From positions 434,001-498,000 of the forward strand of contig NZ_SMCV01000002.1 of NCBI RefSeq assembly GCF_004342285.1: a stretch of 64,000 bases of DNA. The letters run 5' to 3'. Position 1 is the stretch's first letter, and each line of letters starts with the position of its first letter. Both the position numbers and the translations under genes were made by a program. Below, in pieces: positions 13,960 to 33,918 of the stretch. Below the pieces are notes generated by a model that saw only the letters and a program-made list of their open reading frames with translations, was not told the origin of the DNA and did not search any database. This DNA comes from Klebsiella sp. BIGb0138 (GTDB lineage Bacteria; Pseudomonadota; Gammaproteobacteria; Enterobacterales; Enterobacteriaceae).

Positions 13960-14823
13960 CTATGCCTGAGACTGGGAGACATGCCTTGCTGCCGCCTCGT
14001 TCGCGTTAGATACTGCCTCTTCAAAGTTTTCCCCTCTCATCAGGCTGGTGCACAATACCCCCATAAAGCAATCACCAGCGCCATGCGTACTCACCAGTTT
14101 GACCTTCCTGGCCGGTAAAGTCCGCCCGGTTTGATCTGCTTCACAAAACGCCACACCATGTTCGCCCGCGGTGACAACCACCCGGGGGAAGCGCCTGGCC
14201 AATAATTCTGCCGCCCGAAGAGCTGAGGATAAATCGCTCACCGTAATGCCACTCATATCACGCGCTTCGATGCCATTGACCACCAGCAAACTGATACAAT
14301 TTTCCAGTTCAGAACTCAGTTCTCTTGCCGGGGCAGCATTAATGCATACGGGAATATCACGTTTTTTAGCTTCCGCTGCAGCACAGAGATTGATCGTTTC
14401 CGGAACCTCATTTTGCAATACCAGCATCCTGGCATCCTGCCAGACGCTCTCCTGCTGAAAGAGTCCTGCCGGAATACGTTGATTCGCATTCGAGACAACA
14501 ACCGCGCCATAGTCCCCATCAGCATCGGAGATAGCGACGCTCATTCCCGAAGGGGCACCGCTAATTTCCACGACAGCCCCGGTGTCCACTCCGGCATCAC
14601 GCAGCGTCTGCAGCAAAAATTGTCCTTGTGCATCTGCTCCCACCGCGCCAATAAACGCGACAGCAGCGCCCGCTCTGGCGGCTGAAATGGCCTGATTTCC
14701 TCCCTTACCGCCAAATTTGTAAGCGCAGCCTGAGCCTATTACCGTTTCCCCTTTCTCCGGACGATGGTGCGCATCCAGCATAATGTCGTAATGAAGGCTC
14801 CCCGCTACAACAATTTTACTCAT
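13960..14823 (-). CDS. Ribokinase-like (PfkB family) sugar kinase
   Basis: Cytoplasmic ATP-dependent carbohydrate kinase of 287 residues. The first PfkB signature GGKGGNQAISAARAGA is at about residues 38-53, and the catalytic loop THGAGDCFMG is near residue 240, with Asp as base. It is slightly shorter than RbsK (309). It is the last gene of a six-gene minus-strand operon, two bases after the RpiR regulator. Its role would be to phosphorylate the sugar brought in by the ABC transporter, after isomerisation if the TIM-barrel enzyme acts first. The sugar is not identifiable. Confidence 0.85.
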   Translation of the reverse strand: MSKIVVAGSLHYDIMLDAHHRPEKGETVIGSGCAYKFGGKGGNQAISAARAGAAVAFIGAVGADAQGQFLLQTLRDAGVDTGAVVEISGAPSGMSVAISDADGDYGAVVVSNANQRIPAGLFQQESVWQDARMLVLQNEVPETINLCAAAEAKKRDIPVCINAAPARELSSELENCISLLVVNGIEARDMSGITVSDLSSALRAAELLARRFPRVVVTAGEHGVAFCEADQTGRTLPARKVKLVSTHGAGDCFMGVLCTSLMRGENFEEAVSNANEAAARHVSQSQA

Positions 14824-14825
14824 GG

Positions 14826-15683
14826 TTAATATTCCCGCAGGTCCTGAACCGCATGCTGGGTTTTCATCAAATTCTTCTCCGCCTGCTTCAGATCTTTCTT
14901 GGCAATAGCCACAAACAATGCATCCAGAATATTCAGTTGGGCAATGCGTGACGCGGCGTTTTCCCCTAACAAATGCGATCCCTGAGAAGTTGAATTGAGT
15001 ACCACATGCGCATTACGCGCAATAGGCGATTCGGCATAATTCGTAATCGCAATCACTTTGGCCCCATTACGAGCCGCCAGTTTTACCGGGTCGTTAACGG
15101 CACGCGTCGCACCGGAATGGCTGATTGCCAGTACAGCATCGTCGTCTGACAACACTGCGGCGGACATCAACATAATATGGGCATCGTCATATACTGTCGA
15201 TTTTATACCAATCTTTAATAACTTATGCGATAAGTCCCGTGCTACTGTAGCCGACCCCCCAACCGCATATAAATCAATATGACGTGCCTTAAATATAATA
15301 TCCGCAGCGCGGTCAAATTCAGCAATATCCAGTATTGACATCGTTTCTTCAATAGCCTGAATAGAGGTTCTGAATACTTTTGACAACAATTGTTCCGATG
15401 AGTCACCGGGCTCAATTTCCGCATGTAAACTTGCCACTTCAGACTGGTTGTAATAAATCAAACCGGTTCTGAAATTCCTGAATCCCGAAAAGTTAAGCTT
15501 TTTGGCAATTTTGACAATCATTGCTTCTGAAACATTATTTTCCTGGGCAATTTCCTTTAACGAGGTCTGCTCAGTAATGTCCGTTCGGGCAATGATAGCC
15601 TCAACGACACGGCGTTCTAAAGGTGTCAGCTGGGGCAGTCGCATACGTATTTGAGCACCAATGGCTCGTGGATCCTGCTTCAT
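14826..15683 (-). CDS. MurR/RpiR-family transcriptional regulator
   Basis: A 285-residue regulator with an N-terminal RpiR helix-turn-helix (about residues 1-80) and a C-terminal SIS sugar-phosphate-binding domain (about 125-255, with YAVGGSATVA and ISHSGAT). The start ATG at 15683 overlaps the permease stop by one base, so it is translated from the operon it presumably controls. SIS-type regulators sense phosphosugars, so the kinase product is the likely effector. The palindrome at 20331-20350 before the first gene is the best operator candidate. Confidence 0.88.
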   Translation of the reverse strand: MKQDPRAIGAQIRMRLPQLTPLERRVVEAIIARTDITEQTSLKEIAQENNVSEAMIVKIAKKLNFSGFRNFRTGLIYYNQSEVASLHAEIEPGDSSEQLLSKVFRTSIQAIEETMSILDIAEFDRAADIIFKARHIDLYAVGGSATVARDLSHKLLKIGIKSTVYDDAHIMLMSAAVLSDDDAVLAISHSGATRAVNDPVKLAARNGAKVIAITNYAESPIARNAHVVLNSTSQGSHLLGENAASRIAQLNILDALFVAIAKKDLKQAEKNLMKTQHAVQDLREY

Positions 15684-16654
15684 TACTTGCCTCTGGTCGC
15701 TCTGTCAATCAACATCGCTATGATAATAATAAGACCAGTCGCAAGCAATTGGTAAAAAGCCTGGATATTAAGTAACGTCAGGCCATTACGTAGCGCACCA
15801 AGAATGATTGCGCCGATAATTGTACCTACTACGCTACCTTTCCCTCCCATCAGAGACGCGCCGCCAATAGCCGCAGCGGCAATGGCGTCCAGCTCCCACA
15901 GGTTACCAATCGTCGGCTCTGCCGCACCTAGTCGGCCAATCAGGATAAGGGAAGCCAGAGACGCAAGAGTGCCTGAGATAACAAATACCGTGACTTTGGT
16001 TCTTTTCACCGGCACGCCGGCAACGCGAGCAGCTTCTTCATTGCCGCCGACGGCCAGAATATATTCTCCTAACGGAGTTTTATTCATAACGGTCCACAGC
16101 ACCAGAGCAATAACGGCAACAATAACGATAGGCGTTGGAATGCCAAAAATTTCACTGTTAATCAGGCTACGGAATTCCATTGGGATACCAAATACCGGAT
16201 TGCCGCCGGTATAAATCAGCGCGATAGCACGGAACAACGACAGCCCCCCGAGGGTAACAATGAAGGGTTGCAATCCAGCATAGGCAACCAGCGAACCGCT
16301 AAAGACGCCGCAGATAGCCCCTATACCCAGCGTTGCCAGAATGGCCAACGGCACGGGGACTCCCGCTACCATCATGGTTGCCCCTAAAACCGCCGATAAT
16401 GCAGCGGTCGGACCAACCGAAAGATCGATACCTCCGGAGATAATTACCAGGGTCATCCCGAGCGCAATTAATGCGTTAATGGATGATTGTTGTAAAATAT
16501 TCAGCAAATTAGGGATAGTGAAAAACACCGGTGATAAAAAAGAAAACGTAATAATGATAATAAGCAAACCAATTAAGGTTCCAGCATCGCGAAGGTTAAA
16601 TTTAAACGGCAGCGCACGAAGCTTTTCGGGCCGGGAATTACTTTGTAAAATCAT
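15683..16654 (-). CDS. Sugar ABC transporter permease (RbsC family)
   Basis: A 323-residue inner-membrane permease with about 8-10 hydrophobic segments and the conserved ISGGIDLSVG stretch near residue 73 and AVGGNEEAARVAGVPV near residue 206, typical of the RbsC/AraH/XylH group. It forms the channel with the ATPase encoded 35 bases upstream and receives sugar from the binding protein at 18209-19249. The stop overlaps the RpiR start by one base. Confidence 0.9.
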   Translation of the reverse strand: MILQSNSRPEKLRALPFKFNLRDAGTLIGLLIIIITFSFLSPVFFTIPNLLNILQQSSINALIALGMTLVIISGGIDLSVGPTAALSAVLGATMMVAGVPVPLAILATLGIGAICGVFSGSLVAYAGLQPFIVTLGGLSLFRAIALIYTGGNPVFGIPMEFRSLINSEIFGIPTPIVIVAVIALVLWTVMNKTPLGEYILAVGGNEEAARVAGVPVKRTKVTVFVISGTLASLASLILIGRLGAAEPTIGNLWELDAIAAAAIGGASLMGGKGSVVGTIIGAIILGALRNGLTLLNIQAFYQLLATGLIIIIAMLIDRATRGK

Positions 16655-16689
16655 GATTATGGCCTTTCAAATTAATACGGATAACAAAG

Positions 16690-18192
16690 TCAAATGGTCT
16701 CTTCGACATCTTTAATGGCAAAGCGTGCAATATTATCTTCCGTGATAGCATCACCCTTCAGTTCCTTAGTAATCTTCCCTTCACGCATAACCAGTACGCG
16801 GTCTGAAATACGAATAATCTCTGTCATCTCTGAAGAGACAACAACAATCGCTTTGCCTGAACGGGCCAGTTTTTCTATCAGATTATAAATTTCTGATTTT
16901 GCCCCGATATCAATTCCCCGGGTTGGCTCATCAAACAGAAAAACCTGAGCATCTGCGGCAACCCAGCGTCCAATAATAACTTTCTGCTGATTACCTCCAC
17001 TTAATGTGCCAATCGTTTTATCAATATTCAGTGGTCGTAGCTTCAAATCGCTCATCACTTCATGCGCAACCTGGTTAAGCTTAACTTTACTGATCATTCC
17101 CGAAATGGTGAAGTTACGCATTGAAGGCAGCGCCATATTCATCTTCACCGCACGTTCTTTAATAATCCCTTCTTTCTTGCGGTCTTCAGGCACCAGGCCG
17201 ATACCTGAGCTGATGGCGGCACTGACGTTATGATTGCGTACGGCCTTACCGTTAACAAACACGTTGCCGCTGCTACGTTTATCAATACCGGCAATCAGTT
17301 TCATCAGTTCCGTACGCCCGGCTCCGACCAGACCCGCAATACCGAGCACCTCACCGGCACGGACGGTGAAACTGGCATCGCGCACAGCGCCACCACGAGA
17401 GAGATTCTCAACGCGAAGAACTTCACGCTCGGTCACATAAGAGTTGTGCTCAAGTTTCTCAATCTTGCGCCCGACCATCTTTGAGACGATGCTCTCTTCA
17501 TCCTCATCACAAATATTCACCACCCCAACCTGCCTGCCATCCCGCATAATGGTGGCCCGGTCGCAGACTTTGAAAATTTCGTTCATCTTATGAGAAACAT
17601 AGATAAGCGATACCCCCATAGACTTCAGATCCGAAATCAGTTCGGCCAGCCGGTCAAACTCTCTCGGCGTCAGACTGGATGTCGGCTCGTCCATGGCGAT
17701 GATTTTTGCATCGTCCAGCATGGCGCGAGCAATCTCCACGATCTGCTGCTGTGAGACTTTCAGGTTCTTGATCGGCTCATTGGGATCAATTGTCGGATCC
17801 AGCTGTTTGAGAATCAGCTTCGCTCTTTCCAGCTGAGCGTGTTTATCCACCCATAGGCCTTTTGCTTTGGTAAGCGGCCGGCCAAGAAACATATTCTGCG
17901 CAACGGAGAGTTCCGGAACATGCTGTAATTCCTGGTGAATCATGGCAATACCCGCATGACGAGCGCTGAGCGGATTCTTCATCTGAACGGGCTGTCCGTT
18001 CACGCTAATCTCGCCGCTATCGGCCTCTCGTACGCCTGAAAGAATATTTAACAGCGTGGATTTTCCTGCGCCGTTTTCACCAATCAGGGCATGAACCTCT
18101 CCAGCTTTGACCGAAAAGTCCACGTCCTGTAATGCCGCCGCATTACCGTATGTCTTACTTATCCCACGCATCGTTAAGCGATACTGTTCCAT
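16690..18192 (-). CDS. Sugar ABC transporter ATP-binding protein (RbsA family)
   Basis: A 500-residue double ATPase. The N-terminal cassette has Walker A GENGAGKST near residue 40. The C-terminal cassette has the degenerate GLVGAGRTEL, and LSGGNQQKV as signature, as is normal for RbsA, MglA and XylG. The start is ATG 18192 (MEQYRLTMRG) after GGAGGGTGT; an in-frame extension to 18264 would overlap the binding-protein gene and is rejected. It lies 16 bases after that gene in the sugar operon. Confidence 0.92.
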   Translation of the reverse strand: MEQYRLTMRGISKTYGNAAALQDVDFSVKAGEVHALIGENGAGKSTLLNILSGVREADSGEISVNGQPVQMKNPLSARHAGIAMIHQELQHVPELSVAQNMFLGRPLTKAKGLWVDKHAQLERAKLILKQLDPTIDPNEPIKNLKVSQQQIVEIARAMLDDAKIIAMDEPTSSLTPREFDRLAELISDLKSMGVSLIYVSHKMNEIFKVCDRATIMRDGRQVGVVNICDEDEESIVSKMVGRKIEKLEHNSYVTEREVLRVENLSRGGAVRDASFTVRAGEVLGIAGLVGAGRTELMKLIAGIDKRSSGNVFVNGKAVRNHNVSAAISSGIGLVPEDRKKEGIIKERAVKMNMALPSMRNFTISGMISKVKLNQVAHEVMSDLKLRPLNIDKTIGTLSGGNQQKVIIGRWVAADAQVFLFDEPTRGIDIGAKSEIYNLIEKLARSGKAIVVVSSEMTEIIRISDRVLVMREGKITKELKGDAITEDNIARFAIKDVEETI

Positions 18193-18208
18193 ACACCCTC
18201 CGCCTGAC

Positions 18209-19249
18209 TTACTGTTGAGCCAGCAGCTGACGCAGCTTATCGTTATCTTTGGTCGAAAAAGCATCCGCGTTATCTTTCGTGATCAAAGCCTGAGGCGTAG
18301 AGACCACACGGGAAATTTCCTGACCATCAATCAGGCGCAGCATAACTTCCATTGCGACTTCCCCCGTCAGTATCGGGAAGCTGTCCACCGTGCCCGTCAG
18401 TTCGCCACGTTTAATCGAGGCATAGGCATCTGAGATACCATCGGTACCAAATACGGCCACCTGCCCGGCTTTATTCAGCGAACGAACCGCTTCCACCACG
18501 CCCAGCGCCATGGTGTCGTTATTTGCGTAAAAACCAATCAGATCGGGATGCTGCTGCAAGATTGTTGAGGCCGCATTAAACGCCTGTTCACGACTCCAGT
18601 TCGCCGGTACGCTGGCAACAATATTGAACTTGCCGTTGACCTGTAGCGTCTCTTTGAAACCGCTGGTTCGCTGGCCAGCGGCATAGACACCAGGCTGCCC
18701 CTCGATCACTGCAACTTTACCGCCCTGCGGATGATGTTCGATGAACCATTTCGCCACCCGCACACCGTTATCTTTCTGCACGTTCCCGACGTAATACGGT
18801 GCATTTGGCATCACCGCATCGTTAACATTGACCACCGGAATTTTTTTGCTGGTGGCACTTTCCAGAGCGGGTTCGAGGTTGATATCAGTCTGAGGTGATA
18901 CCAGCAGCCCGTTAAATCCCTGGGAGATAAGCGTTTCCGCTATTGATAACTGACCCAGTTGATCGTCTTCATTTGCGGCAGCCTGGTAAGCTACGGTGAA
19001 GCCATATTTTTTACCGACGTTCTGATAACCTTCGCCGAGTGAACGCCAGTATTCATTGGTCAGCGTTTTCGATACGCCGCCAATTTTAAGTTTGCTGTCG
19101 ACTTTCGGCATAGGGCCATATTTGCTGCTGAGTTGCGTCCAGTCTGTGCGATCCGGTTCAGTATCCGATTTCAGCGGGGCTAAATCAGCGGCGTAAGCCA
19201 TCGAGCACAGTAAAGAAGAGGCGAGTACAGAGAGTATGAGCTTTTTCAT
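18209..19249 (-). CDS. Periplasmic sugar-binding protein (RbsB/LacI-fold family)
   Basis: A 346-residue solute-binding protein. Residues 1-20 are a signal peptide (MKKLILSVLASSLLCSMAYA). The mature part has the periplasmic-binding type I fold with ISQGFNGLLVSPQTD and FYANNDTMALGVVEAV segments. It carries an unusual 25-residue acidic/polar leader before the fold begins at KLKIGGVS. It delivers sugar to the RbsC/RbsA-like pair. The ligand is unknown; sequence resembles general ribose/allose/autoinducer-2-type binders. Confidence 0.88.
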   Translation of the reverse strand: MKKLILSVLASSLLCSMAYAADLAPLKSDTEPDRTDWTQLSSKYGPMPKVDSKLKIGGVSKTLTNEYWRSLGEGYQNVGKKYGFTVAYQAAANEDDQLGQLSIAETLISQGFNGLLVSPQTDINLEPALESATSKKIPVVNVNDAVMPNAPYYVGNVQKDNGVRVAKWFIEHHPQGGKVAVIEGQPGVYAAGQRTSGFKETLQVNGKFNIVASVPANWSREQAFNAASTILQQHPDLIGFYANNDTMALGVVEAVRSLNKAGQVAVFGTDGISDAYASIKRGELTGTVDSFPILTGEVAMEVMLRLIDGQEISRVVSTPQALITKDNADAFSTKDNDKLRQLLAQQ

Positions 19250-19307
19250 TTTTCAGCCTTTAATTTTCGCATCAGGGTACATTTTTAATTTTTGCTAATT
19301 CTTTGCG

Positions 19308-20288
19308 CTATCTGGCCAGCATAATGTCATTAACTATCCACTGAGAGGCAACTGCGTCCTGGCGGCTGATGGCCGCTGCCAGTTCATCATTGCCATTCAG
19401 TTGTTCACAAAGTTTCAGTAGACGGGTAACAGTCGCAATGTTGATTTCAGCTTCACGAACCGGATCCAGACCACTGGCATCCGGGAAAGTGTCAAAGTAA
19501 TAGGCCCCCTGATAACCATCGCGCTGCATCTGCCAGAGAAATTCCAGCGTGGCACGTGGGTTGACCGAGCCCACCATCAACCCATCGTCACGTTTTCCCC
19601 AACCGTCATTGAGATCAAGCCCCAGCAGACGTGAACGGCGCGCTACCATCGCCGCAGCGTAAGCTGGAATTTCATTGGCAAACAGCACGTGAGCAAAATC
19701 AAGCGTGATCCCCAGATTCGGACAGCCAGCTTCTTCTACCGCCAGTAAGCATGTCGTGGCATTGGGGAAAATACTGTAAGCACGCGGCTCATTCGGTTTG
19801 TATTCGATACTGATATCGACGTCCGGCGCATATTCGGCAATTTCACGGACTGCGCTCACCGCATCGTCCCAGATTTTTTTGTAATCGGCCTGGAAGCAGT
19901 AATCATAGCCATCCTGCCCCATCCACAGCGTCATCAGGCGTGATCCAAATTCGCGCCCGGCATCAATTCCGCGTTTTGTCAACTCAATGGCTTCGCGGCG
20001 GATCTGCGGATTAGGGTTAGTAAATGCCCCGATTTTAAATTGCGGTGCATCCCAGCGCATTTGCATACCGTTGACCGCTAGTCCTGCATCTTCAATGGCC
20101 AGGCGCAGCGTTTGAATATCAGTCGTGATGTGTTGCGGATAGTTCAAATCAAGATGGGTTAACCCTTTTACCTTACCGGCGCGGGCAATCATCTGCAGCA
20201 CAGAGGGTTTTCCCTGAAGATCCGGCCAATAGAGGTTCGCCCCTGAGGCAAAAGAGTTTAAACGCGTGGCAAATTTCAATTCCGACAT
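19308..20288 (-). CDS. Sugar (phosphate) isomerase/epimerase, xylose-isomerase-like TIM barrel
   Basis: A 326-residue enzyme of the AP-endonuclease 2/xylose-isomerase-like barrel family. Likely metal ligands are Glu in SIEYKPNEPR (about residue 178), Asp and His in TLDFAH (about 211-214) and Asp/Asn around GLDLNDGWGK. Family members interconvert aldoses and ketoses or epimerise ketoses. ATG 20288 follows AAGGA by 9 bases; an in-frame upstream ATG at 20336 lies inside the operator and is rejected. First gene of the operon, so isomerisation is probably the first or second catabolic step. Confidence 0.8.
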   Translation of the reverse strand: MSELKFATRLNSFASGANLYWPDLQGKPSVLQMIARAGKVKGLTHLDLNYPQHITTDIQTLRLAIEDAGLAVNGMQMRWDAPQFKIGAFTNPNPQIRREAIELTKRGIDAGREFGSRLMTLWMGQDGYDYCFQADYKKIWDDAVSAVREIAEYAPDVDISIEYKPNEPRAYSIFPNATTCLLAVEEAGCPNLGITLDFAHVLFANEIPAYAAAMVARRSRLLGLDLNDGWGKRDDGLMVGSVNPRATLEFLWQMQRDGYQGAYYFDTFPDASGLDPVREAEINIATVTRLLKLCEQLNGNDELAAAISRQDAVASQWIVNDIMLAR

Positions 20289-21118
20289 GAGGGTGGATCC
20301 TTCAAAACTAGTTTGTGATGTACTTTCCTTCTTCACAATTATTTGTGAAGTTATGATTTAAACTACACTTCACCACCAGGTTATCAAGCGTGACAATCCG
20401 AAAAATGAATAAAATGAGAGATGAGTCACGAAACAAAATGGGAACCCCTTGTCCTAAGACTCTGTTGTCCAGACATAATAAATATTAATAAACAATGAGT
20501 TAATGAGGATAGTAGTGAGGGGATGTAAATAAGGAATCTGTGATGGCGGTTTCAGAGTATGCCTGCAGTATCCTGATGGATTCCGAACTACGAGCGCCGG
20601 GTGCAGTTCAACATCCGGGGATGCCGTAAGGATCGCTCCCCCTTGATGTTGGGGTATATGGGCCAGGGACGAACATGGTGCCATCAGGACAGGGCGGATC
20701 CTATGATGTTCATCCTGCCTGCTATAGGGCGGTATCGTCCATTCCGTGCAACAAGATATTGTTTTGCCTCAGCCACCGGGTCGTCGTTTAGAGCAGAAAA
20801 GCTGATTTGAACAGAATGTTTAAATATCATCAGTTCAGTTTTTTCAATTAAAGTAGACTATCGGTGACTTCATTTTCTAATCCGGATTAAAAAATTCGGC
20901 TTTTTTATCAATGAATATTTATTCTATATTGACATATAAGACCACAGACAATATAAGGAAGTAGCTAGACAATATACATTCCTGTCTTATCCCAGCGTTT
21001 TATCACCCGTATCTTCAAAGAAACCGATCGTCTGCAATTAAATTAAGACGCAGACAATCATATATCGGTCTGAAGTCATTTTATTACCGGTCTCGTTAAT
21101 CAGCCACGACACCATCAG
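20289..21118. other. 830-bp AT-rich intergenic region
   Basis: Besides the operon control region at its left end, no convincing gene is visible. Open frames at 20454-20684 and 20601-20810 overlap on opposite strands and have no recognisable motif. The part 20820-21060 is strongly AT-rich, with runs such as CGGATTAAAAAATTCGGCTT. It may be the remnant of a lost insertion, but no element end or repeat was identified. Confidence 0.5.
20331..20350. promoter_or_regulatory. Palindromic operator candidate of the sugar ABC operon
   Basis: A perfect 8-bp inverted repeat, CTTCACAA and TTGTGAAG, separated by TTAT, lies 43-62 bases before the isomerase start. A further TTTGTGA half-site lies at about 20312-20318. 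The orientation (TCACA then TGTGA) is the reverse of a CRP site. Binding by the operon's own RpiR regulator is inferred. A possible promoter (TTGATA, 16-base spacer, TAGTTT on the minus strand, about 20361-20388) stands just upstream. Confidence 0.5.
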
Positions 21119-27634: not shown

Positions 27635-28327
27635 TCAGCGGATATCGCGCTGGCTGATAAAGCGGGCAATTTCCGCCGGGAGCTGATACATCGACTGAAT
27701 AATTACCCCTGCGCCGGCCGCCCGCAGTTTTTCACCATGCAAAGGATAAGTATGCGCCCCCCCAATGTAGCCAATAACCGCCATGCCCGCCCTGCTGGCT
27801 GCGGTTACCCCATGGACGGAATCTTCAATCACCAGCGTATTTTCTGGGGCCGCATTCATCACTCTTGCAGCATGCAGGTATATATCAGGCTGGGGTTTGG
27901 CGCGTCCAGGCCCTAAATCGACGGCGGAAAAAACGCCGCCAGGAAAAAGCGGCTTCAGGCCAACCAGGGTCAACGCATAGTCAATCTGGCTGCTGGAGGA
28001 GTTGGAGCAGATGCATTTTGGAAAGTCCAGCGAACGGAGAACCTCCAATGTACCGTCGGTTCGCGTCAATTTTTGTGCAAACTCCTCCTGCAACAACGCA
28101 TAGAACGTACCGTTGATCGAAGCCGGCACGGCAACGCCCTGCCGATCGCGAACCTTATCGATCAGCTCGTCCCATGAAAGTCCGCTGAACTCGCTGGCAA
28201 ACTCGTGAAACCCTATCGTCACTCCGTGGCTTTCCAGCAGCCGCAGAGTCAGATTGATACCAATAATCTCGGAATCAATCAGCACGCCATCACAGTCAAA
28301 TATTACCAGTTCAGGTGCTCTGGCCAT
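27635..28327 (-). CDS. HAD-superfamily sugar phosphatase (YieH/GmhB-like subfamily)
   Basis: A 230-residue hydrolase. The nucleophile motif is IFDCDGVLIDSE (Asp9 and Asp11 from MARAPELV), motif II is CSNSSSS, and the C-terminal acidic motif is VIEDSVHGV. This is the beta-phosphoglucomutase/YieH-like subgroup that acts on phosphosugars such as 6-phosphogluconate. ATG 28327 is preferred; the in-frame extension to 28381 has no ribosome site. It lies 64 bases after the aldolase gene and probably ends the PTS operon. It may remove a toxic phosphosugar or dephosphorylate a pathway intermediate; this is inference. Confidence 0.85.
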   Translation of the reverse strand: MARAPELVIFDCDGVLIDSEIIGINLTLRLLESHGVTIGFHEFASEFSGLSWDELIDKVRDRQGVAVPASINGTFYALLQEEFAQKLTRTDGTLEVLRSLDFPKCICSNSSSSQIDYALTLVGLKPLFPGGVFSAVDLGPGRAKPQPDIYLHAARVMNAAPENTLVIEDSVHGVTAASRAGMAVIGYIGGAHTYPLHGEKLRAAGAGVIIQSMYQLPAEIARFISQRDIR

Positions 28328-28391
28328 CTTTATTTTTCCCGTTAGGATCCGGTCGCCGCCGGTGGCGGCAGGCGACCGCACAGACTAAGAT

Positions 28392-29306
28392 TTAAGCAGC
28401 CTGTACCTGCTTTCTGTATTTGACCAGCAGTTGCTGGATATCGCGCAGACGGGAAACCGCTATTGAAGACAGTTTCTCTTTTGAAACATCACGGTCAAGA
28501 GAAATGCAGTCTTTCCAAAGCGAGCGTCCGGCAATCACTCCGGATGCGCCGTTGCGCAGGGAGATCTCAACCTGGTTCAGGAAGGTGGCATGGTCGACTC
28601 CGGCAGACAGTACCGCCCACGGAATATCGCCACAGATTTCCGTCACCGCTGCGCAAGCTTCTTCCGTTCCCGGATAAGGGATTTTCAGTACCTTTGAACC
28701 GCACTCAATGCATAGCTTACAGCCATCCTGAATCAGCTGCGGAATTCTACGCTGGTATTCTTCCTTACTTTCATTTTCCAACGGGTAGGTCAGGAACTCC
28801 ACGACCAGTAGCAGGTCTTCACGCGCGAAGTCGGCAATGACCTCCCTCAGCGTCGCAAGGTTGGCGGTATTGGCATCCGGTATATCGGAACGCAGGTAGA
28901 TCATAATTTTCCCGCCGGTAGCGCCCAGTTCGCGAACTTTGCGCGCATTAATCCCTTCCACCATCGTAGAGATGCGATATCCCTGCTCTGAGGTTTCCCA
29001 GCCGGACGCATCCAGGCCGACCAGCAGACCGGTATTACGTGGCAGTACGCCTTCATCGACAATTCCCGGTACGGCACAGAGAGGGTCGACTAATACACAG
29101 CCCGCTTCAGAGGCAAGATAGCGGGTAATATCATATTTCGTTTTACCCAGCGTTTCGTTACTGATCTCTTTTTGCGCTTCAGGGGTTGCCGCTAATAACG
29201 TCCGCATTCCTCCGCGCTGATCGCAGGCGACAACCATCATTGAACCTGTAGCATCGCAAATCATTTGATAGCCGCGACGCTCAGCGGTGGTCATTATATT
29301 CATCAT
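28392..29306 (-). CDS. Class I aldolase of the LacD/YihT family (tagatose-1,6-bisphosphate aldolase-like)
   Basis: A 304-residue TIM-barrel aldolase. The Schiff-base lysine is in GSKVLKIPYPG (about residue 208), which aligns with DVLKVEVPV of LacD, and VACDQRGGM near residue 27-34 matches the substrate-phosphate region. LacD cleaves tagatose 1,6-bisphosphate with loose stereospecificity, and YihT cleaves sulfofructose 1-phosphate. Two adjacent ATG codons (29306, 29303) follow GAGGGTATAT. It lies in the operon after the P-loop kinase gene (35-base gap). It should make dihydroxyacetone phosphate plus an aldehyde from the pathway's ketose phosphate. Confidence 0.87.
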   Translation of the reverse strand: MMNIMTTAERRGYQMICDATGSMMVVACDQRGGMRTLLAATPEAQKEISNETLGKTKYDITRYLASEAGCVLVDPLCAVPGIVDEGVLPRNTGLLVGLDASGWETSEQGYRISTMVEGINARKVRELGATGGKIMIYLRSDIPDANTANLATLREVIADFAREDLLLVVEFLTYPLENESKEEYQRRIPQLIQDGCKLCIECGSKVLKIPYPGTEEACAAVTEICGDIPWAVLSAGVDHATFLNQVEISLRNGASGVIAGRSLWKDCISLDRDVSKEKLSSIAVSRLRDIQQLLVKYRKQVQAA

Positions 29307-29341
29307 ATATACCCTCTTATAGGAGATTAACAGTATTAAAA

Positions 29342-29881
29342 TTAATTGCAGTGCAGACGCTGGCCAATCCATGTCATCAGATCGTGGCCATCGCTGAGGT
29401 TATTCTGGTCAACGATATAGACATCACTTAACGCCATTGGCTGTGCTTTCTCAGCCAGTCGCATTAATTCCGGAATATACTCTTCCCCCGGATGCCCCTT
29501 CACCCGACAGGAGCACCGTGATTTATAGCGCTCAGCCACATTTTCCGCCGAGATCTTATTCCATATTTCAATAACACTCTGGCATCCAGCCATCGCAAGG
29601 TATTCTTCAAGAACTGACCTGTCGCGAAAACCAAACCAGGCATCTAATATAAACAGCGAATTTTCCGGCGCGCTCCTGACAATCCTGAACATAGCTTCAT
29701 ATGCGGCATACCCGAGCTTACGATTTAATGGTCGGTCAATAATATCGGCAAACTGAAGCATAAAGGGCTCTTTAATTTCATCGATACTCAACACTGGCGC
29801 ATTAAAATGCAGAGAAATATTTTTTGCCACCGAGCTTTTCCCTGACGCGGGAATACCATTCACTAAAATCAGTTTCCTCAT
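29342..29881 (-). CDS. P-loop kinase-like ATP-binding protein
   Basis: A 179-residue protein beginning MRKLILVNGIPASGKSSVAK, with Walker A GIPASGKSS at residues 9-17. The rest resembles small-molecule kinases of the AAA_33/gluconokinase-like type, with Arg-rich stretches (AERYKSRCSCR, about 116-126) that could form the lid. It starts inside the EIIA stop (ATGA overlap, 29878-29881). A second kinase in a PTS operon is unusual; it may phosphorylate a non-PTS intermediate or have a regulatory role. Substrate not identifiable. Confidence 0.75.
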   Translation of the reverse strand: MRKLILVNGIPASGKSSVAKNISLHFNAPVLSIDEIKEPFMLQFADIIDRPLNRKLGYAAYEAMFRIVRSAPENSLFILDAWFGFRDRSVLEEYLAMAGCQSVIEIWNKISAENVAERYKSRCSCRVKGHPGEEYIPELMRLAEKAQPMALSDVYIVDQNNLSDGHDLMTWIGQRLHCN

Positions 29882-30315
29882 AATAACCTCAGTATTTCAT
29901 CTACAGAGGTAGCGTTTCTGATTTGCGCTAATGTCGTCTCATCTTCCAGCAGTTCCACTATCGAGGCAATGCCTTCGGTAATATGGGTATTGCTGTCGAC
30001 CCCAGCAAACATCACCACAATATCTACCGGCGAGCTGCCATGAATTGATATCGGTACTTTTAACGTTGCCATACTGAAACAGTTCTTTATTACCCCACAC
30101 TCTGGTCTTGCGTGAGGAATAGCAATACCTTCATCAAAGACGTAATAGGCACCAAATTCCTCCGTATTATTAATTACCGCGGTGGGATAATCACGGGTGA
30201 CAAACCCGCCGGTAATTAATGGCTGCGCCACTATTTCAATTATCTCATGCCATGAATGAACTTCAATGCTGACCTGAATACAATGGTTCTCCGAGAGAAA
30301 GTCTTTAATACTCAT
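29878..30315 (-). CDS. PTS EIIA component, ascorbate/fructose type (UlaC-like)
   Basis: A 145-residue cytoplasmic phosphocarrier of the EIIA-2 (fructose-mannitol/ascorbate) class. The phosphorylated histidine is His68 in AIPHARPE, at the same position as in UlaC. It takes phosphate from HPr and passes it to the EIIB encoded at 32007-32297. The start lies six bases after the stop of the 89-residue unknown gene. The 3' end overlaps the kinase gene by four bases. Confidence 0.9.
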   Translation of the reverse strand: MSIKDFLSENHCIQVSIEVHSWHEIIEIVAQPLITGGFVTRDYPTAVINNTEEFGAYYVFDEGIAIPHARPECGVIKNCFSMATLKVPISIHGSSPVDIVVMFAGVDSNTHITEGIASIVELLEDETTLAQIRNATSVDEILRLL

Positions 30316-30321
30316 ACAACC

Positions 30322-30591
30322 TCATATATTTTTGCGGATAGTGTTCCTTAATTCGTCAATTTTAACGAAAACATCATCAACACAATTTCTGTAGTCCTTG
30401 CTGGCAGCGTAAATTTTGATGGCCTGGTTATATTTCACCATTAACAGTTTTTGCGTTGCATTATCCGCCGGGTTTTCAGCCAGTGCGGCTTCTAACTGTG
30501 ATAACTCAAGCTTGACTTTCTCGGCCTCAGCGTCATAGGTATTCCCCTGCACCTTACCTGAATTAAAGAGTTTTTTTAATGATGAAAACAT
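30322..30591 (-). CDS. Unrecognised 89-residue helical protein in the PTS operon
   Basis: A mostly helical, charged protein beginning MFSSLKKLFNSGK. From about residue 20 to 88 it looks like two or three amphipathic helices, which could form a helical hairpin or coiled coil. It has no signal peptide, no membrane segment and no cysteine except one near residue 69. It lies between EIIC and EIIA. A short palindrome GTTAATT-T-AATTAAC (30638-30652) stands between the EIIC stop and this gene. A regulatory or scaffolding part of the transporter is possible, but no family is recognised. Confidence 0.75.
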   Translation of the reverse strand: MFSSLKKLFNSGKVQGNTYDAEAEKVKLELSQLEAALAENPADNATQKLLMVKYNQAIKIYAASKDYRNCVDDVFVKIDELRNTIRKNI

Positions 30592-30654
30592 ATTGCCTCC
30601 TGGTGCGTTACTACGTTATTTCTGCCGGGGGATATCAGTTAATTTAATTAACGA

Positions 30655-31992
30655 TTACTTGCTCAGTTTTCTGTTAGCAAACCAGACAATTAGGACGACG
30701 AAGACAATAAAGCCGATGACGAATGACCAGTCATTCTGGAAAGCATGGCCTAATACCAGCCCCGTACTGATGACATCAGAGTCGCTGAAGGTCACACCTT
30801 TAAAGCCGAAGGACTCCAGCAGCGGCACCAGAATGGCGGGCAGCAGGGTGATAAATAACCCGTGTACCACGCCGCCGATAATGGCCCCTTTTCTGCCACC
30901 CATCGCGTTACCAAACACCCCGGCAGCCCCTCCGGCGAAGAAGTTGGTTAACAGGCCGGGCAGGATCATCGCCAGACCGAACATCGGAAAGACGATCATG
31001 CCGATAATTGACCCCACGGTAGTGGCGAGAAAGCCAACGATGACCGCGTTTGGCGCGTAGGGGAACAGTACCGGGCAGTCCAGAGCGGGTTTGGCATTCG
31101 GCACCAGGCGCATGGCAATACCACGGAAGGCTGGTACCAGTTCGTTCAGCAGTAAACGTACACCGCTGTACAGCACGAATACACCGGCAACAAACTGCAT
31201 TGACTGCATAAAGGAGTACATAATGTAGTTAGTATCCCCGGCGAACTGCGCGATATAACCCGAACCGGCGAAGATTGCAGGAATGATATACATCGGCACC
31301 ATAATCACCGCCATCGACAGGTAGGTATCCTGCAGGAACTTAAAGTTATCAGGCAGTTGCAGATCTTCGGTTGAGTGGGAGTTCTTACCGACCACTTTGG
31401 CCACTGCCGCCTGCACCAGATAGCCAATGGTGCAGAAGTGTCCCAATGCAATATCATCCGAATCAGTGATCTTACGCACGATAGGCTGCGCGATTGCCGG
31501 CATCAGCACCGCCATGATGCCGCCAAAGATTCCACCGGTTAGAATCAGAGAGGCCCCACTTAACCCGGCTTTATAACCAATGACGGTACCAATGGTTGCC
31601 ATCCACAGCAGAGCCTGACCGGTCAGGAAGATATATTTAAACGGTGTAATACGGGCGATAAGGATGTTAACGGCAAAAATGACCAGCAGTGTAAGCGCGA
31701 CTTCCGAGCCCAGCTCACGGTTAGCCACCCCGGCAATCGCAGCGACGTCGGTGATATACCCCTTCATACCAAAGCCTTGGGTGAAGATATCATTGAGGAA
31801 GGTCAGCGCCTCGACGATGATATTGATCCCGGCCATCATGATCAGGAAGCCAAGCAGGGTTTTAAAGGTCCCTTCAACCGTTTTCCCGAGCGATTTTTTC
31901 TGTAAGATCAGACCCAGCATTGCAATAAGCGCAATCAGTATCGAAGCCTGCCCTAAAAAATCTTTGACTATAAAATGAATAATAGCGTCCAC
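30655..31992 (-). CDS. PTS EIIC component, ascorbate (UlaA/SgaT) family
   Basis: A 445-residue membrane permease with about 11 hydrophobic segments. The LLGFLIMMAGINII stretch and ALDCPVLFPYAPNAVIVGF near residue 320 align with the UlaA sequence, including the invariant APNAV. GTG at 31992 is chosen as start because GAGG lies six bases before it and MDAIIHFIVKDF begins the first helix; an earlier GTG at 32004 overlaps the ribosome site. It lies 14 bases after EIIB. UlaA carries L-ascorbate, but no ula catabolic genes are present here, so the substrate probably differs. Confidence 0.9.
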   Translation of the reverse strand: MDAIIHFIVKDFLGQASILIALIAMLGLILQKKSLGKTVEGTFKTLLGFLIMMAGINIIVEALTFLNDIFTQGFGMKGYITDVAAIAGVANRELGSEVALTLLVIFAVNILIARITPFKYIFLTGQALLWMATIGTVIGYKAGLSGASLILTGGIFGGIMAVLMPAIAQPIVRKITDSDDIALGHFCTIGYLVQAAVAKVVGKNSHSTEDLQLPDNFKFLQDTYLSMAVIMVPMYIIPAIFAGSGYIAQFAGDTNYIMYSFMQSMQFVAGVFVLYSGVRLLLNELVPAFRGIAMRLVPNAKPALDCPVLFPYAPNAVIVGFLATTVGSIIGMIVFPMFGLAMILPGLLTNFFAGGAAGVFGNAMGGRKGAIIGGVVHGLFITLLPAILVPLLESFGFKGVTFSDSDVISTGLVLGHAFQNDWSFVIGFIVFVVLIVWFANRKLSK

Positions 31993-32006
31993 GTAACACC
32001 TCACGA

Positions 32007-32297
32007 TTACTTGTTTTTCATATAAGCAAGGATTTTTTCTTCTATCTCATTCTTATCCGTCAGTTTATTTAATATGATAACTTTTTTCTTTTGTTCCTCG
32101 CTGGCGTCGGCATTTAAAATATCGGCAAACATTTTTTGTGTAAGAATGAAATCATATTTAAAAGATGATGCTTCAGAAACCGTCGTATGATCGATATCGG
32201 CATCAATCTGTAACTTCTTTAATACTGCTTTCGCGCTCATCTCAATAGCAAAACTTGAGCCAAGGCCACAGCCACATACGCAGAGTACTTTAAGCAT
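32007..32297 (-). CDS. PTS EIIB component, ascorbate/galactitol type (UlaB-like)
   Basis: A 96-residue cytoplasmic phosphotransfer protein. The phosphocysteine is Cys8 in CVCGCGLGSS, matching VCGNGQGSS of UlaB; Cys6 and Cys10 flank it, which is atypical. It lies ten bases after the phosphofructokinase-like gene and 14 bases before EIIC. Confidence 0.9.
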   Translation of the reverse strand: MLKVLCVCGCGLGSSFAIEMSAKAVLKKLQIDADIDHTTVSEASSFKYDFILTQKMFADILNADASEEQKKKVIILNKLTDKNEIEEKILAYMKNK

Positions 32298-32307
32298 TTT
32301 AAATACC

Positions 32308-33288
32308 TCAGATAAGTTGAGTTAGTTTAGCCAGTTTGTAGATGTCGCTTTCTTGATCTACTAAACGTCTTTCAGAATCTTCAAGATCGAGCGGAATCGC
32401 TCTATTGTTGTTATTAATAACTATGATTTTATTAGTCAGACCGCTGTTGATACATCTCACCACTTCTTCAGCTAATATTGCACCTTCAATAATTTCCTCG
32501 CCGGTTGGCATCCCGCTTCTTAAACCATATCCTAAAATCGTTTTTCTGATACGAATACCAATCTTGTGCTCGATTTTGCCAATCATAGTATCAATCGCCC
32601 CCTGGAATCCTGGGGTATATTCTTTGGTGTAGCCTTCTGAGCAGAGGATTATCACGCTATTCTGCTGTTTTATTTTACATTTAATACGACTGGCCAGCTC
32701 GTCGATATCCCATATGGCTTCAGGAATTAAGGCAATATCGGCATTACTTTTCAGCGCGGCCTGAAGCGTCAGTTCGCCGCAGTATCCCCCTAGCAGCTCA
32801 ATCATAAATACACGCCCCGGCAGCCCGCGCCCGGTATTACGTAGTTTGGCGACCTCAGCAATAACCTGTTCACAGGCGGTAGAAAACCCCACTGTATAAC
32901 TGTTACCGGCAATATCATTATCAATCGTCATACCGATTCCGTAACAATTTATACCGTAGCCACTCAGATTCTTTAGAAACTGAAATGAACCATCGCCGCC
33001 TCCCATAATCAGACAATCCAGTTTTTTACTACGAATATTTTTAACTATTTTTTCGTAGTCAGATTTTCTGCATTTATCCTCTTTTCTGCCGGAAGAAACT
33101 AACGGCACGGCGGAGATTGAAAAATCGACTAAATCTCTGGTTGATATTTCCTTGGCACAGTTGCCGATCAAACCATTAATACCACCATCAAAAATAACAA
33201 TTTCTGTTTCAGTCATTCGATTGATCTGAAAAAGAAAATTATTCATGCCGCTGACGTCGCCACCACTAATTACCAAACCAATTTTCAT
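32308..33288 (-). CDS. 6-phosphofructokinase-family (PfkA-type) kinase with altered sugar pocket
   Basis: A 326-residue PfkA-fold kinase, near E. coli length (320). Seen: GGDVSGMN (9-16), GGGDGS (96-101, Gly at the position that marks ATP instead of pyrophosphate use), and the catalytic TIDND (121-125). The 6-phosphate arginines are kept (Arg159, Arg248, Arg257), but the MGR sugar loop reads LGG (166-168) and the His of LGHIQRGG is Tyr254. This suggests a ketose 6-phosphate other than fructose 6-phosphate. ATG 33288 follows GAGGG. It is the first gene of the PTS operon and is clearly more AT-rich than the core genes. Confidence 0.85.
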   Translation of the reverse strand: MKIGLVISGGDVSGMNNFLFQINRMTETEIVIFDGGINGLIGNCAKEISTRDLVDFSISAVPLVSSGRKEDKCRKSDYEKIVKNIRSKKLDCLIMGGGDGSFQFLKNLSGYGINCYGIGMTIDNDIAGNSYTVGFSTACEQVIAEVAKLRNTGRGLPGRVFMIELLGGYCGELTLQAALKSNADIALIPEAIWDIDELASRIKCKIKQQNSVIILCSEGYTKEYTPGFQGAIDTMIGKIEHKIGIRIRKTILGYGLRSGMPTGEEIIEGAILAEEVVRCINSGLTNKIIVINNNNRAIPLDLEDSERRLVDQESDIYKLAKLTQLI

Positions 33289-33429
33289 GGTGCCCTCAGG
33301 TTATTTACTCAGCTCTTAAGGTGAAATCGATTCTAATAGTGGGCATATTATTTTTTTTGAACCCCATCACATATTTGTGAGATTTCAGGGCTCAAAAGGT
33401 TATTGACAGGTTAAAAATACATAAAAAAT

Positions 33430-33445
33430 TGTGATAATAATCACT
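33430..33445. promoter_or_regulatory. CRP site candidate upstream of the PTS operon
   Basis: TGTGA-TAATAA-TCACT matches the TGTGA-N6-TCACA core at 9 of 10 positions. It lies 142 bp before the first gene. Confidence 0.6.
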
Positions 33446-33562
33446 AATATTTAGAGCGTTTTTAAAGCCAAATTTTTTAACCATATGTTTTTATTTATCT
33501 TTTTTGTTAGGCTCTATTTTTTAAAAAGTGTGTATTTTGCCAAAAAATCGGCGTATTCATTT

Positions 33563-33578
33563 TGTGATAAGTTTCACA
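33563..33578. promoter_or_regulatory. CRP site candidate with perfect core, upstream of the PTS operon
   Basis: TGTGA-TAAGTT-TCACA matches the CRP core at 10 of 10 positions, 275 bp before the kinase gene. With the nearer site it suggests strong cAMP-CRP control of the PTS genes, as usual for sugar uptake systems. Confidence 0.65.
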
Positions 33579-33798
33579 TTAAATACGGAGATGAGGGGAA
33601 AAGAACCGGGAAATAACCAGTGGATGAACGCTGGCAATAGCCAGGAGATACCACCGCGGGAGGGAAGTCGCAAGTGAAGAGGTTTTTTTACCCGGGAATG
33701 AACTATCGACCGACGGAACATAATCCCCTGTCAAGGTAGCGGCTTTACTACACCTGCAGATTACGTTAGCTCATGGGTTAAACGACAAAAAGCAAAAA

Positions 33799-33820
33799 GG
33801 GGTTACCTGTCGGTAACCCC
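33799..33820. terminator. Terminator after tRNA-Ser
   Basis: GGGGTTACC and GGTAACCCC pair around a four-base loop, with T-runs on both sides (TTTTTTT on the plus strand, TTTTTGCTTTTT on the minus). It lies 10 bases after the tRNA 3' end. Confidence 0.9.
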
Positions 33821-33830
33821 TTTTTTTATT

Positions 33831-33918
33831 TGGCGGAAGCGTAGAGATTCGAACTCTAGAACCCTTTCGGGTCGCCGGTTTTCAAGACCGGTGCCTTCAA
33901 CCGCTCGGCCACGCTTCC
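33831..33918 (-). tRNA. serT: tRNA-Ser(UGA)
   Basis: An 88-base class II tRNA on the minus strand, starting GGAAGCGTGGCCGAGCGG and ending in an encoded CCA. The anticodon TGA sits in CTTGAAA, the long variable arm is GGCGACCCGAAAGGGTT, and the T-arm has the usual GTTCGAATC. In E. coli serT lies beside yccA, the same place as here apart from the peptide-binding gene in between. The metabolic island begins just downstream of its 3' end. Confidence 0.97.

Follow-up and report, generated by a model that had tools for sequence, protein, structure and literature searches.

What route does an operon encode when a phosphotransferase system (PTS) of the ascorbate type stands beside a phosphofructokinase-like enzyme and an aldolase? 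The question is raised by eight genes in a 64,000-nucleotide stretch of the Klebsiella sp. BIGb0138 genome (assembly GCF_004342285.1, contig NZ_SMCV01000002.1, positions 434,001 to 498,000 of the forward strand), referred to here as the window. The operon is likely to be catabolic and CRP-activated, and to serve a ketose-type sugar that would be imported by the PTS, phosphorylated a second time and cleaved by the aldolase. A first-pass annotation had placed eight co-oriented genes of the following families between window positions 27635 and 33288, and all eight are found there, on the minus strand. From 5' to 3' they are:

32308..33288, minus strand: pfk, first gene, PfkA-family kinase, predicted ketose-6-phosphate 1-kinase (PFK, PF00365, 194.7 bits)
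32007..32297, minus strand: PTS EIIB (PTS_IIB, PF02302, 43.3 bits; CGCGLGSS motif)
30655..32004, minus strand: PTS EIIC of the ascorbate/galactitol superfamily (EIIC-GAT, PF03611, 412 bits; NF009551, 800.2 bits against a cut-off of 657)
30322..30591, minus strand: ORF89, conserved small protein of 89 amino acids (aa) without a Pfam or NCBIfam match
29878..30315, minus strand: PTS EIIA (PTS_EIIA_2, PF00359, 101.7 bits)
29342..29881, minus strand: small P-loop kinase (AAA_33, 28 bits, barely above the cut-off of 27); its start overlaps the EIIA stop
28392..29372, minus strand: class I aldolase of the LacD/YihT superfamily (DeoC/LacD, PF01791, 62.2 bits)
27635..28381, minus strand: HAD phosphatase, optional member (HAD, PF13419, 74.3 bits)

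Among the NCBIfam families listed, EIIC clears curated cut-offs, while EIIA, EIIB, the PfkA-like kinase and the aldolase clear none. The aldolase probably starts at 29306 rather than 29372 (coding part 29306-28392), because homologues align from that internal Met; for the HAD protein too, an internal ATG (28327) is, by our reading, the probable start.

The operon is real, recurring and patchily distributed. Related loci were collected via the PfkA-like gene, whose presence in them is thus by construction. A genome scan found 104 relatives, the best 80 of which were kept; with the window, two stretches from a plasmid collection and 11 from further genomes, 94 stretches were examined, and since five of the 11 duplicate other loci, 89 of these are distinct. 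Six genes (PfkA-like, EIIB, EIIC, ORF89, EIIA and P-loop kinase) occur in one shared order in 88 of the 89 distinct loci, all from Enterobacterales: the first three are present in 89/89, and EIIA, ORF89 and the P-loop kinase in 88/89, the sole exception being a locus (L030) where the contig ends. Because the same set recurs in the same order, its recurrence is beyond chance. By predicted starts, the EIIA stop and the P-loop kinase start overlap by 4 bases in 82 of 92 loci. Relatives among the best 80 include Klebsiella, Raoultella, Serratia, Pantoea, Buttiauxella, Erwinia, Pectobacterium, Lonsdalea and Cedecea.

The aldolase, on the other hand, is of two kinds. The first-pass annotation had proposed co-occurrence of EIIC, PfkA-like and LacD-like genes as a check, and the first two are indeed found together in all 89 distinct loci; within a same-strand span that opens 3 kb ahead of the pfk start and closes 9 kb beyond it, however, a class I LacD-like aldolase is present in 22 of the 94 loci and a class II aldolase instead in 71, with none having both and one locus being cut at the contig end. 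The class I gene is positioned after the P-loop kinase gene, and the class II gene (approximately 280 aa) between EIIC and ORF89. In the same span, a HAD gene resembling that of the window follows the aldolase in 11/22 class I loci and 0/71 class II loci. In a quick tree of the PfkA-like protein from 87 loci, the two aldolase types are kept apart, and the 84 labelled rows need one change between them (three are unlabelled, and long branches were noted), so a single exchange, in either direction, suffices.

The class I enzyme scores 50.2 of 432.2 bits with the LacD equivalog TIGR01232, and its nearest model, PRK12858 (tagatose 1,6-diphosphate aldolase), gives 153.7 bits against a cut-off of 184. 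Its Lys155, Glu192 and Lys230 (ORF numbering) align with the LacD and YihT chains, at the lysine, glutamate and lysine positions that are catalytic in LacD. The sulfofructose phosphate aldolase YihT (1to3, 7ag7) is a class I relative in which these three residues are aligned, although similarity to the operon enzyme is low (E 5e-18) and no sulfosugar gene was recognised among the eight. Two of the 71 class II enzymes (those of L018 and L026) were family-tested: they pass the cut-off of the ketose-bisphosphate aldolase subfamily, TIGR00167 (261.2 and 257.7 bits; cut-off 215.6), and none narrower. With the TIGR01858 equivalog (GatY/KbaY) they reach 233.5 and 238.6 of 443.55 bits, with a GatY model 254 and 258 bits, and with their best model, fructose-bisphosphate aldolase, 284.7 and 273.5 of the 343.05 bits that it requires. 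Solved relatives of the L018 enzyme are fructose- and tagatose-bisphosphate aldolases and YdjI. A single step is thus apparently filled by two unrelated enzymes, a clear-cut example from nature, and this is the best sequence evidence pointing to a route by sugar-bisphosphate cleavage. The sequence of PTS, PfkA-like kinase and aldolase that had been predicted from the window is thereby strengthened.

The PfkA-like kinase is 29% identical to the other PfkA-family protein of the genome (L003), taken as the canonical PfkA. It retains the GGDGS and TIDND motifs and the three arginines of the 6-phosphate site, and it is altered at other pocket residues, the counterparts of Met169, Arg171, His249 and Gly124 of E. 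coli PfkA. Neither the 6-phosphofructokinase equivalog TIGR02482 (163.1 of 371.35 bits) nor the subfamily model PRK03202 (197.1 of 253 bits) is reached.

The small P-loop kinase has one clear match among solved structures, the putative kinase 2rhm (E 1.7e-15), and a profile of it finds relatives in 8 of 299 phylum genomes, two of the eight outside the order. In one genome (G440) a 512-aa protein begins with a ROK kinase and has the P-loop kinase as its C-terminal part. This fusion adjoins a LacD-like aldolase and an ABC transporter, the binding protein of which is closest to RbsB; by inspection, its neighbours also appear to include a regulator-like gene and the remaining ABC parts. In another (G641) a 482-aa frame, not family-tested, ends with the kinase. 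The ROK-P-loop kinase fusion is matched over 80% or more of its length by 24 records of the plasmid collection, which come from rhizobia and their kin and of which some are near-copies; the aldolase is at most 50 bases from the fusion or overlaps it in 24/24 (coordinates compared by eye). This adjacency makes it probable that the P-loop kinase is part of the pathway. At 40% identity or more, plasmid relatives of the P-loop kinase come from Sodalis, Klebsiella, Rhizobium, Agrobacterium and Aureimonas and make up 26 of 36 records; the remaining ten are weaker.

Compared with the window, seven rhizobial loci have aldolases that are 64-74% identical and P-loop kinases that are 41-46% identical. 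In this cluster (e.g. L131-L135) an ABC transporter and a ROK kinase replace the PTS and the PfkA-like enzyme, and a regulator gene is adjacent: a 'sugar-binding domain-containing protein' in 5/5 annotated regions, which in Agrobacterium rubi is nearest the DeoR and LsrR models, below their cut-offs. The ABC transporter nearby is of the ribose type in 4/5 of these regions, and of another type in A. rubi. The smallest set (L132) consists of the regulator, ABC transporter, aldolase and ROK-P-loop kinase fusion. A PFK-family gene is present elsewhere in two fusion-bearing genomes, and none is present in four plasmid records (chromosomes not searched). The rhizobial set would thus provide two kinase domains before an aldolase, as a bisphosphate route needs. 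No published account of this cluster was found in the open-licence literature.

Three further features of the rhizobial clusters were seen. A PdxJ-like gene stands beside the HAD gene in 2/5 annotated clusters (L131:9724-10473 and L134:8119-8865, family-tested for L131 only), which, if linked, could hint at an amino-sugar product. The HAD protein of L131 is 42% identical to that of the window. In the same A. rubi locus, a CofD/YvcK-like gene (L131:14399-15493; GAK-system model, 173.7 of 340 bits) lies directly behind the ROK-P-loop kinase fusion.

Upstream of pfk there are three CRP-like sites, for which counts were taken in the corresponding position windows of 87 loci and in dinucleotide shuffles as controls:

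33356..33371, minus strand: CRP-like site at approximately -83 from the pfk start, TGTGATGGGGTTCAAA, 9/10 consensus letters; at least 8/10 in 69/87 loci against 1.25 in shuffles
33430..33445, minus strand: CRP-like site at approximately -157, AGTGATTATTATCACA, 9/10; at least 8/10 in 84/87 loci against 1.35 in shuffles
33563..33578, minus strand: CRP-like site at approximately -290, TGTGAAACTTATCACA, 10/10; at least 8/10 in 84/87 loci against 1.95 in shuffles

In 86/87 loci the start of the middle site is followed, at a distance of exactly 74 bases, by a TGTGA-like half-site, the one nearest 74 having been taken where several were on offer. Activation of the operon by cyclic AMP-CRP is probable on this prediction. 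Like the aldolase exchange and the rhizobial ROK fusion, the conserved promoter had been overlooked in the first-pass annotation. Two other elements may bind a further regulator: a TGTCAA block that is conserved between these sites (window 33288-33578) and, in class II loci, the end of the -80 site, which resembles TTGCAAAT.

The route that we propose is predicted throughout, in every reaction, in its CRP control and in its class of sugar, from gene content, order and conservation, the aldolase exchange, the promoter sites and the fusion. EIIA, EIIB and EIIC would import the sugar and phosphorylate its terminal CH2OH (counted as C6), and the PfkA-like enzyme would phosphorylate the other end (C1). 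The aldolase, which is of class I in this operon and of class II in the majority of its relatives, would then cleave the bisphosphate to dihydroxyacetone phosphate and a phosphorylated aldehyde, both of which could feed central metabolism. The small P-loop kinase would contribute to this pathway by phosphorylating a sugar or a sugar phosphate, ORF89 would assist the PTS, and the HAD phosphatase would be an optional member. When flanking open reading frames of at least 70 aa were clustered over the 89 loci, a few of which end early, none outside the operon (not family-tested) recurred in more than 24/89, and hence no linked regulator was found. As no isomerase or dehydrogenase is regularly linked by the same count, the sugar is probably a ketose already on import, the candidates being a plain ketohexose, a heptulose and a modified ketose. 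On this proposal the operon would be a form of PTS-fed bisphosphate aldolase catabolism with an unusual aldolase exchange. No published description of it was found in the open-licence literature, beyond which one may exist.

Several points weigh against this proposal. The enteric loci have three phosphoryl-transfer activities (PTS, PfkA-like and P-loop kinase) where two are needed, a surplus that is the main unexplained point of the route. No PfkA-family gene is found near the aldolase in the seven rhizobial loci, and in the L026 kinase the TIDND motif has Asn in place of its second Asp. For neither the class I nor the class II aldolase is the substrate fixed by a curated model. The CRP-like sites are conserved, yet shuffles cannot demonstrate selection on them because the upstream regions of the loci are related, and a consensus scan for sigma-70-like promoters gives no excess (8 found against 10.9 expected). 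Finally, a plain ketohexose would be redundant in Klebsiella because other loci are reported: K. pneumoniae is described as having a D-tagatose PTS, tagKTH (PMC10101011), and as impaired in growth on D-psicose by deletion of a different permease (PMC6020474). D-tagatose and D-psicose are each weakened as substrates by these reports.

The readings that compete with this ketose pathway differ mainly in the sugar and in the kinase. A tagatose-like route had been favoured by the first-pass annotation, and an operon for D-tagatose with a different transporter, running from tagatose through the 6-phosphate and the 1,6-bisphosphate to triose phosphates, would agree with PRK12858 being nearest to the class I enzyme, albeit below its cut-off, with the GatY scores of the two class II enzymes and with the acceptance of tagatose 1,6-bisphosphate by known enzymes of both aldolase kinds. 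It is nevertheless unlikely: the best class II model is fructose-bisphosphate aldolase (also below cut-off), the LacD equivalog is far from reached, and the kinase pocket residues differ from those of PfkA, although PfkA itself takes tagatose 6-phosphate. LacC is a PfkB-type kinase. The LacABCD pathway shares the steps from 6-phosphate to 1,6-bisphosphate to triose phosphates and an aldolase of the LacD superfamily; in the operon, by contrast, the kinase is of the PfkA family (PF00365), no isomerase is among the eight genes and the PTS is of another class. The separate tagKTH system likewise combines a PTS, a kinase and an aldolase for a ketose, but its transporter is reported to be fructose-PTS-like and its kinase to act on tagatose 1-phosphate, as opposed to the ascorbate-type PTS and PfkA-family kinase found here (PMC10101011).

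A higher or modified plant ketose, such as a heptulose that the PTS would convert to a 7-phosphate, the PfkA-like enzyme to a 1,7-bisphosphate and the aldolase to dihydroxyacetone phosphate and erythrose 4-phosphate, is distinctly unlikely; in the open-licence literature a search yielded, by title, just cancer hexokinases. It would fit a sugar pocket that is altered while the far-end phosphate arginines are kept, the plant sources of most listed rhizobial records, the enteric genera known from plants, the reported redundancy of plain ketohexoses in Klebsiella, and the tagatose arrangement that D-mannoheptulose has at C3 and C4. The surplus of kinases would be resolved differently if the P-loop kinase were the 1-kinase of the pathway and the PfkA-like enzyme an isoenzyme or an enzyme for a second, related substrate. 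We hold this to be improbable since the PfkA-like gene stands first in the operon with its catalytic motif intact; its presence at every locus carries no weight, because the loci were found through it. Consistent with a P-loop 1-kinase are the smallest rhizobial set, which lacks a nearby PfkA-like gene, and the enteric overlap of the EIIA stop and kinase start, which mirrors the ROK fusion. A divergent ascorbate system drawing on ula enzymes encoded elsewhere is very hard to credit. The L-ascorbate PTS operon ula of E. coli shares the EIIC superfamily and has EIIA and EIIB of related kinds, and EIIC passes the ascorbate transporter IIC model NF006919 (486.9 bits; cut-off 380). The stricter PRK12996 is not reached (379.4 of 890 bits), however, and EIIA (114.4 of 187 bits, PRK10372) and EIIB (21.8 of 138 bits, PRK10222) fall below the ascorbate equivalog cut-offs. 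As had been claimed from the window, no counterpart of the ula lactonase, decarboxylase or epimerases is among the eight genes (the rest of the genome was not searched), and a kinase and an aldolase recur instead.

Returning to the ketose route by bisphosphate cleavage, a wider proposal is put forward tentatively, with more doubt than confidence: that there is one undescribed pathway in two forms, an enteric one with the PTS and a divergent PfkA-like kinase and a rhizobial one with an ABC transporter and the ROK-P-loop kinase fusion, which share the exchanged aldolase step; that the P-loop kinase represents a new sugar-phosphate kinase family; and that the substrate is a plant ketose, possibly a heptulose or modified ketose, for which a bacterial pathway is not known. 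An operon that recurs in Klebsiella, Serratia, Pantoea, Pectobacterium and other genera, and that is annotated automatically, would gain a pathway, perhaps for a plant sugar whose use by bacteria has so far gone unrecognised. A new family of sugar kinases may be represented by the P-loop kinase, which in rhizobia is joined to ROK. The locus also advises caution: an EIIC annotation does not equal ascorbate use, a LacD annotation does not equal tagatose use, and a GC dip does not equal recent transfer.

The last of these cautions comes from the base composition. A GC drop in the kinase and EIIB part had been noted and read as a sign of transfer; the drop itself is there, with GC contents of 0.35-0.46 in the pfk, EIIB, ORF89, EIIA and P-loop kinase genes of the window. 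We rejected it as a sign of recent transfer since pfk (93/93) and EIIB (94/94) are below the locus GC in every homologue scored, duplicates counted, and this extends to hosts with a locus GC of up to 0.58. ORF89 is below it in 98% of 93 homologues and the class I aldolase in just 10% of 20. Low GC is a trait of these genes themselves. A tRNA-driven island was also considered but is not supported: the 3' end of the nearby tRNA-Ser occurs once in the window at up to 3 mismatches, and no attachment repeat was found.

Spread by transfer is nonetheless plausible given the patchy presence, as the PfkA-like protein (E 1e-60) is found in 12/394 genomes of the order, the window's own included, and the class I aldolase (E 1e-20) in 1/20 genomes of the genus, that one being the window's own; loss could also produce this pattern. 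With the window's own genome again counted, the PfkA-like protein is found in 7/398 genomes of the phylum sample at E 1e-70 and in 13/20 genus genomes at E 1e-60 (one split in two pieces). Neither operon type was detected in complete E. coli genomes at megablast sensitivity, the queries being the window stretch and a K. pneumoniae class II stretch. Ten kilobases of sequence to the side of the operon are 81% identical to K. pneumoniae where they match. For K. pneumoniae strain 176, a possibly incomplete gene table shows no such genes in the corresponding region, and the operon relative sits elsewhere, adjoining formate dehydrogenase genes. Its pfk-like and class II aldolase matches are each in two pieces (L004:9001-12494); K. 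pneumoniae ATCC 13883 (L074) has full-length matches to both. In one genome, a second, related EIIC-EIIB-EIIA set (L024:15419-17376) lies a few kilobases from the operon.

ORF89 is present in 1/274 genomes of the class sample, again the window's own, and an alignment of 41 sequences has 12 invariant columns of 96. A family search with these 41 members gave scattered weak matches, with at most 5 members per family, and no function emerged; it is predicted to be an accessory protein of the PTS.

The nearest upstream gene lies outside the operon:

33831..33918, minus strand: tRNA-Ser (ARAGORN)

A 14-pair terminator-like hairpin at 33794-33825 lies between this tRNA and the operon. Elsewhere in the window, a separate sugar cluster (13960-20336, minus strand) comprises a ribokinase-like kinase, a MurR/RpiR-family regulator, a ribose/allose-type ABC transporter and a xylose-isomerase-like enzyme. 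Between 21953 and 26676 there is a row of inositol-phosphatase-like, solute-binding, aminotransferase, ornithine-cyclodeaminase-like and YheO-type regulator genes, the aminotransferase of which passes PRK07324 and, against the guanitoxin enzyme GntC, reaches 334 of 415 bits.

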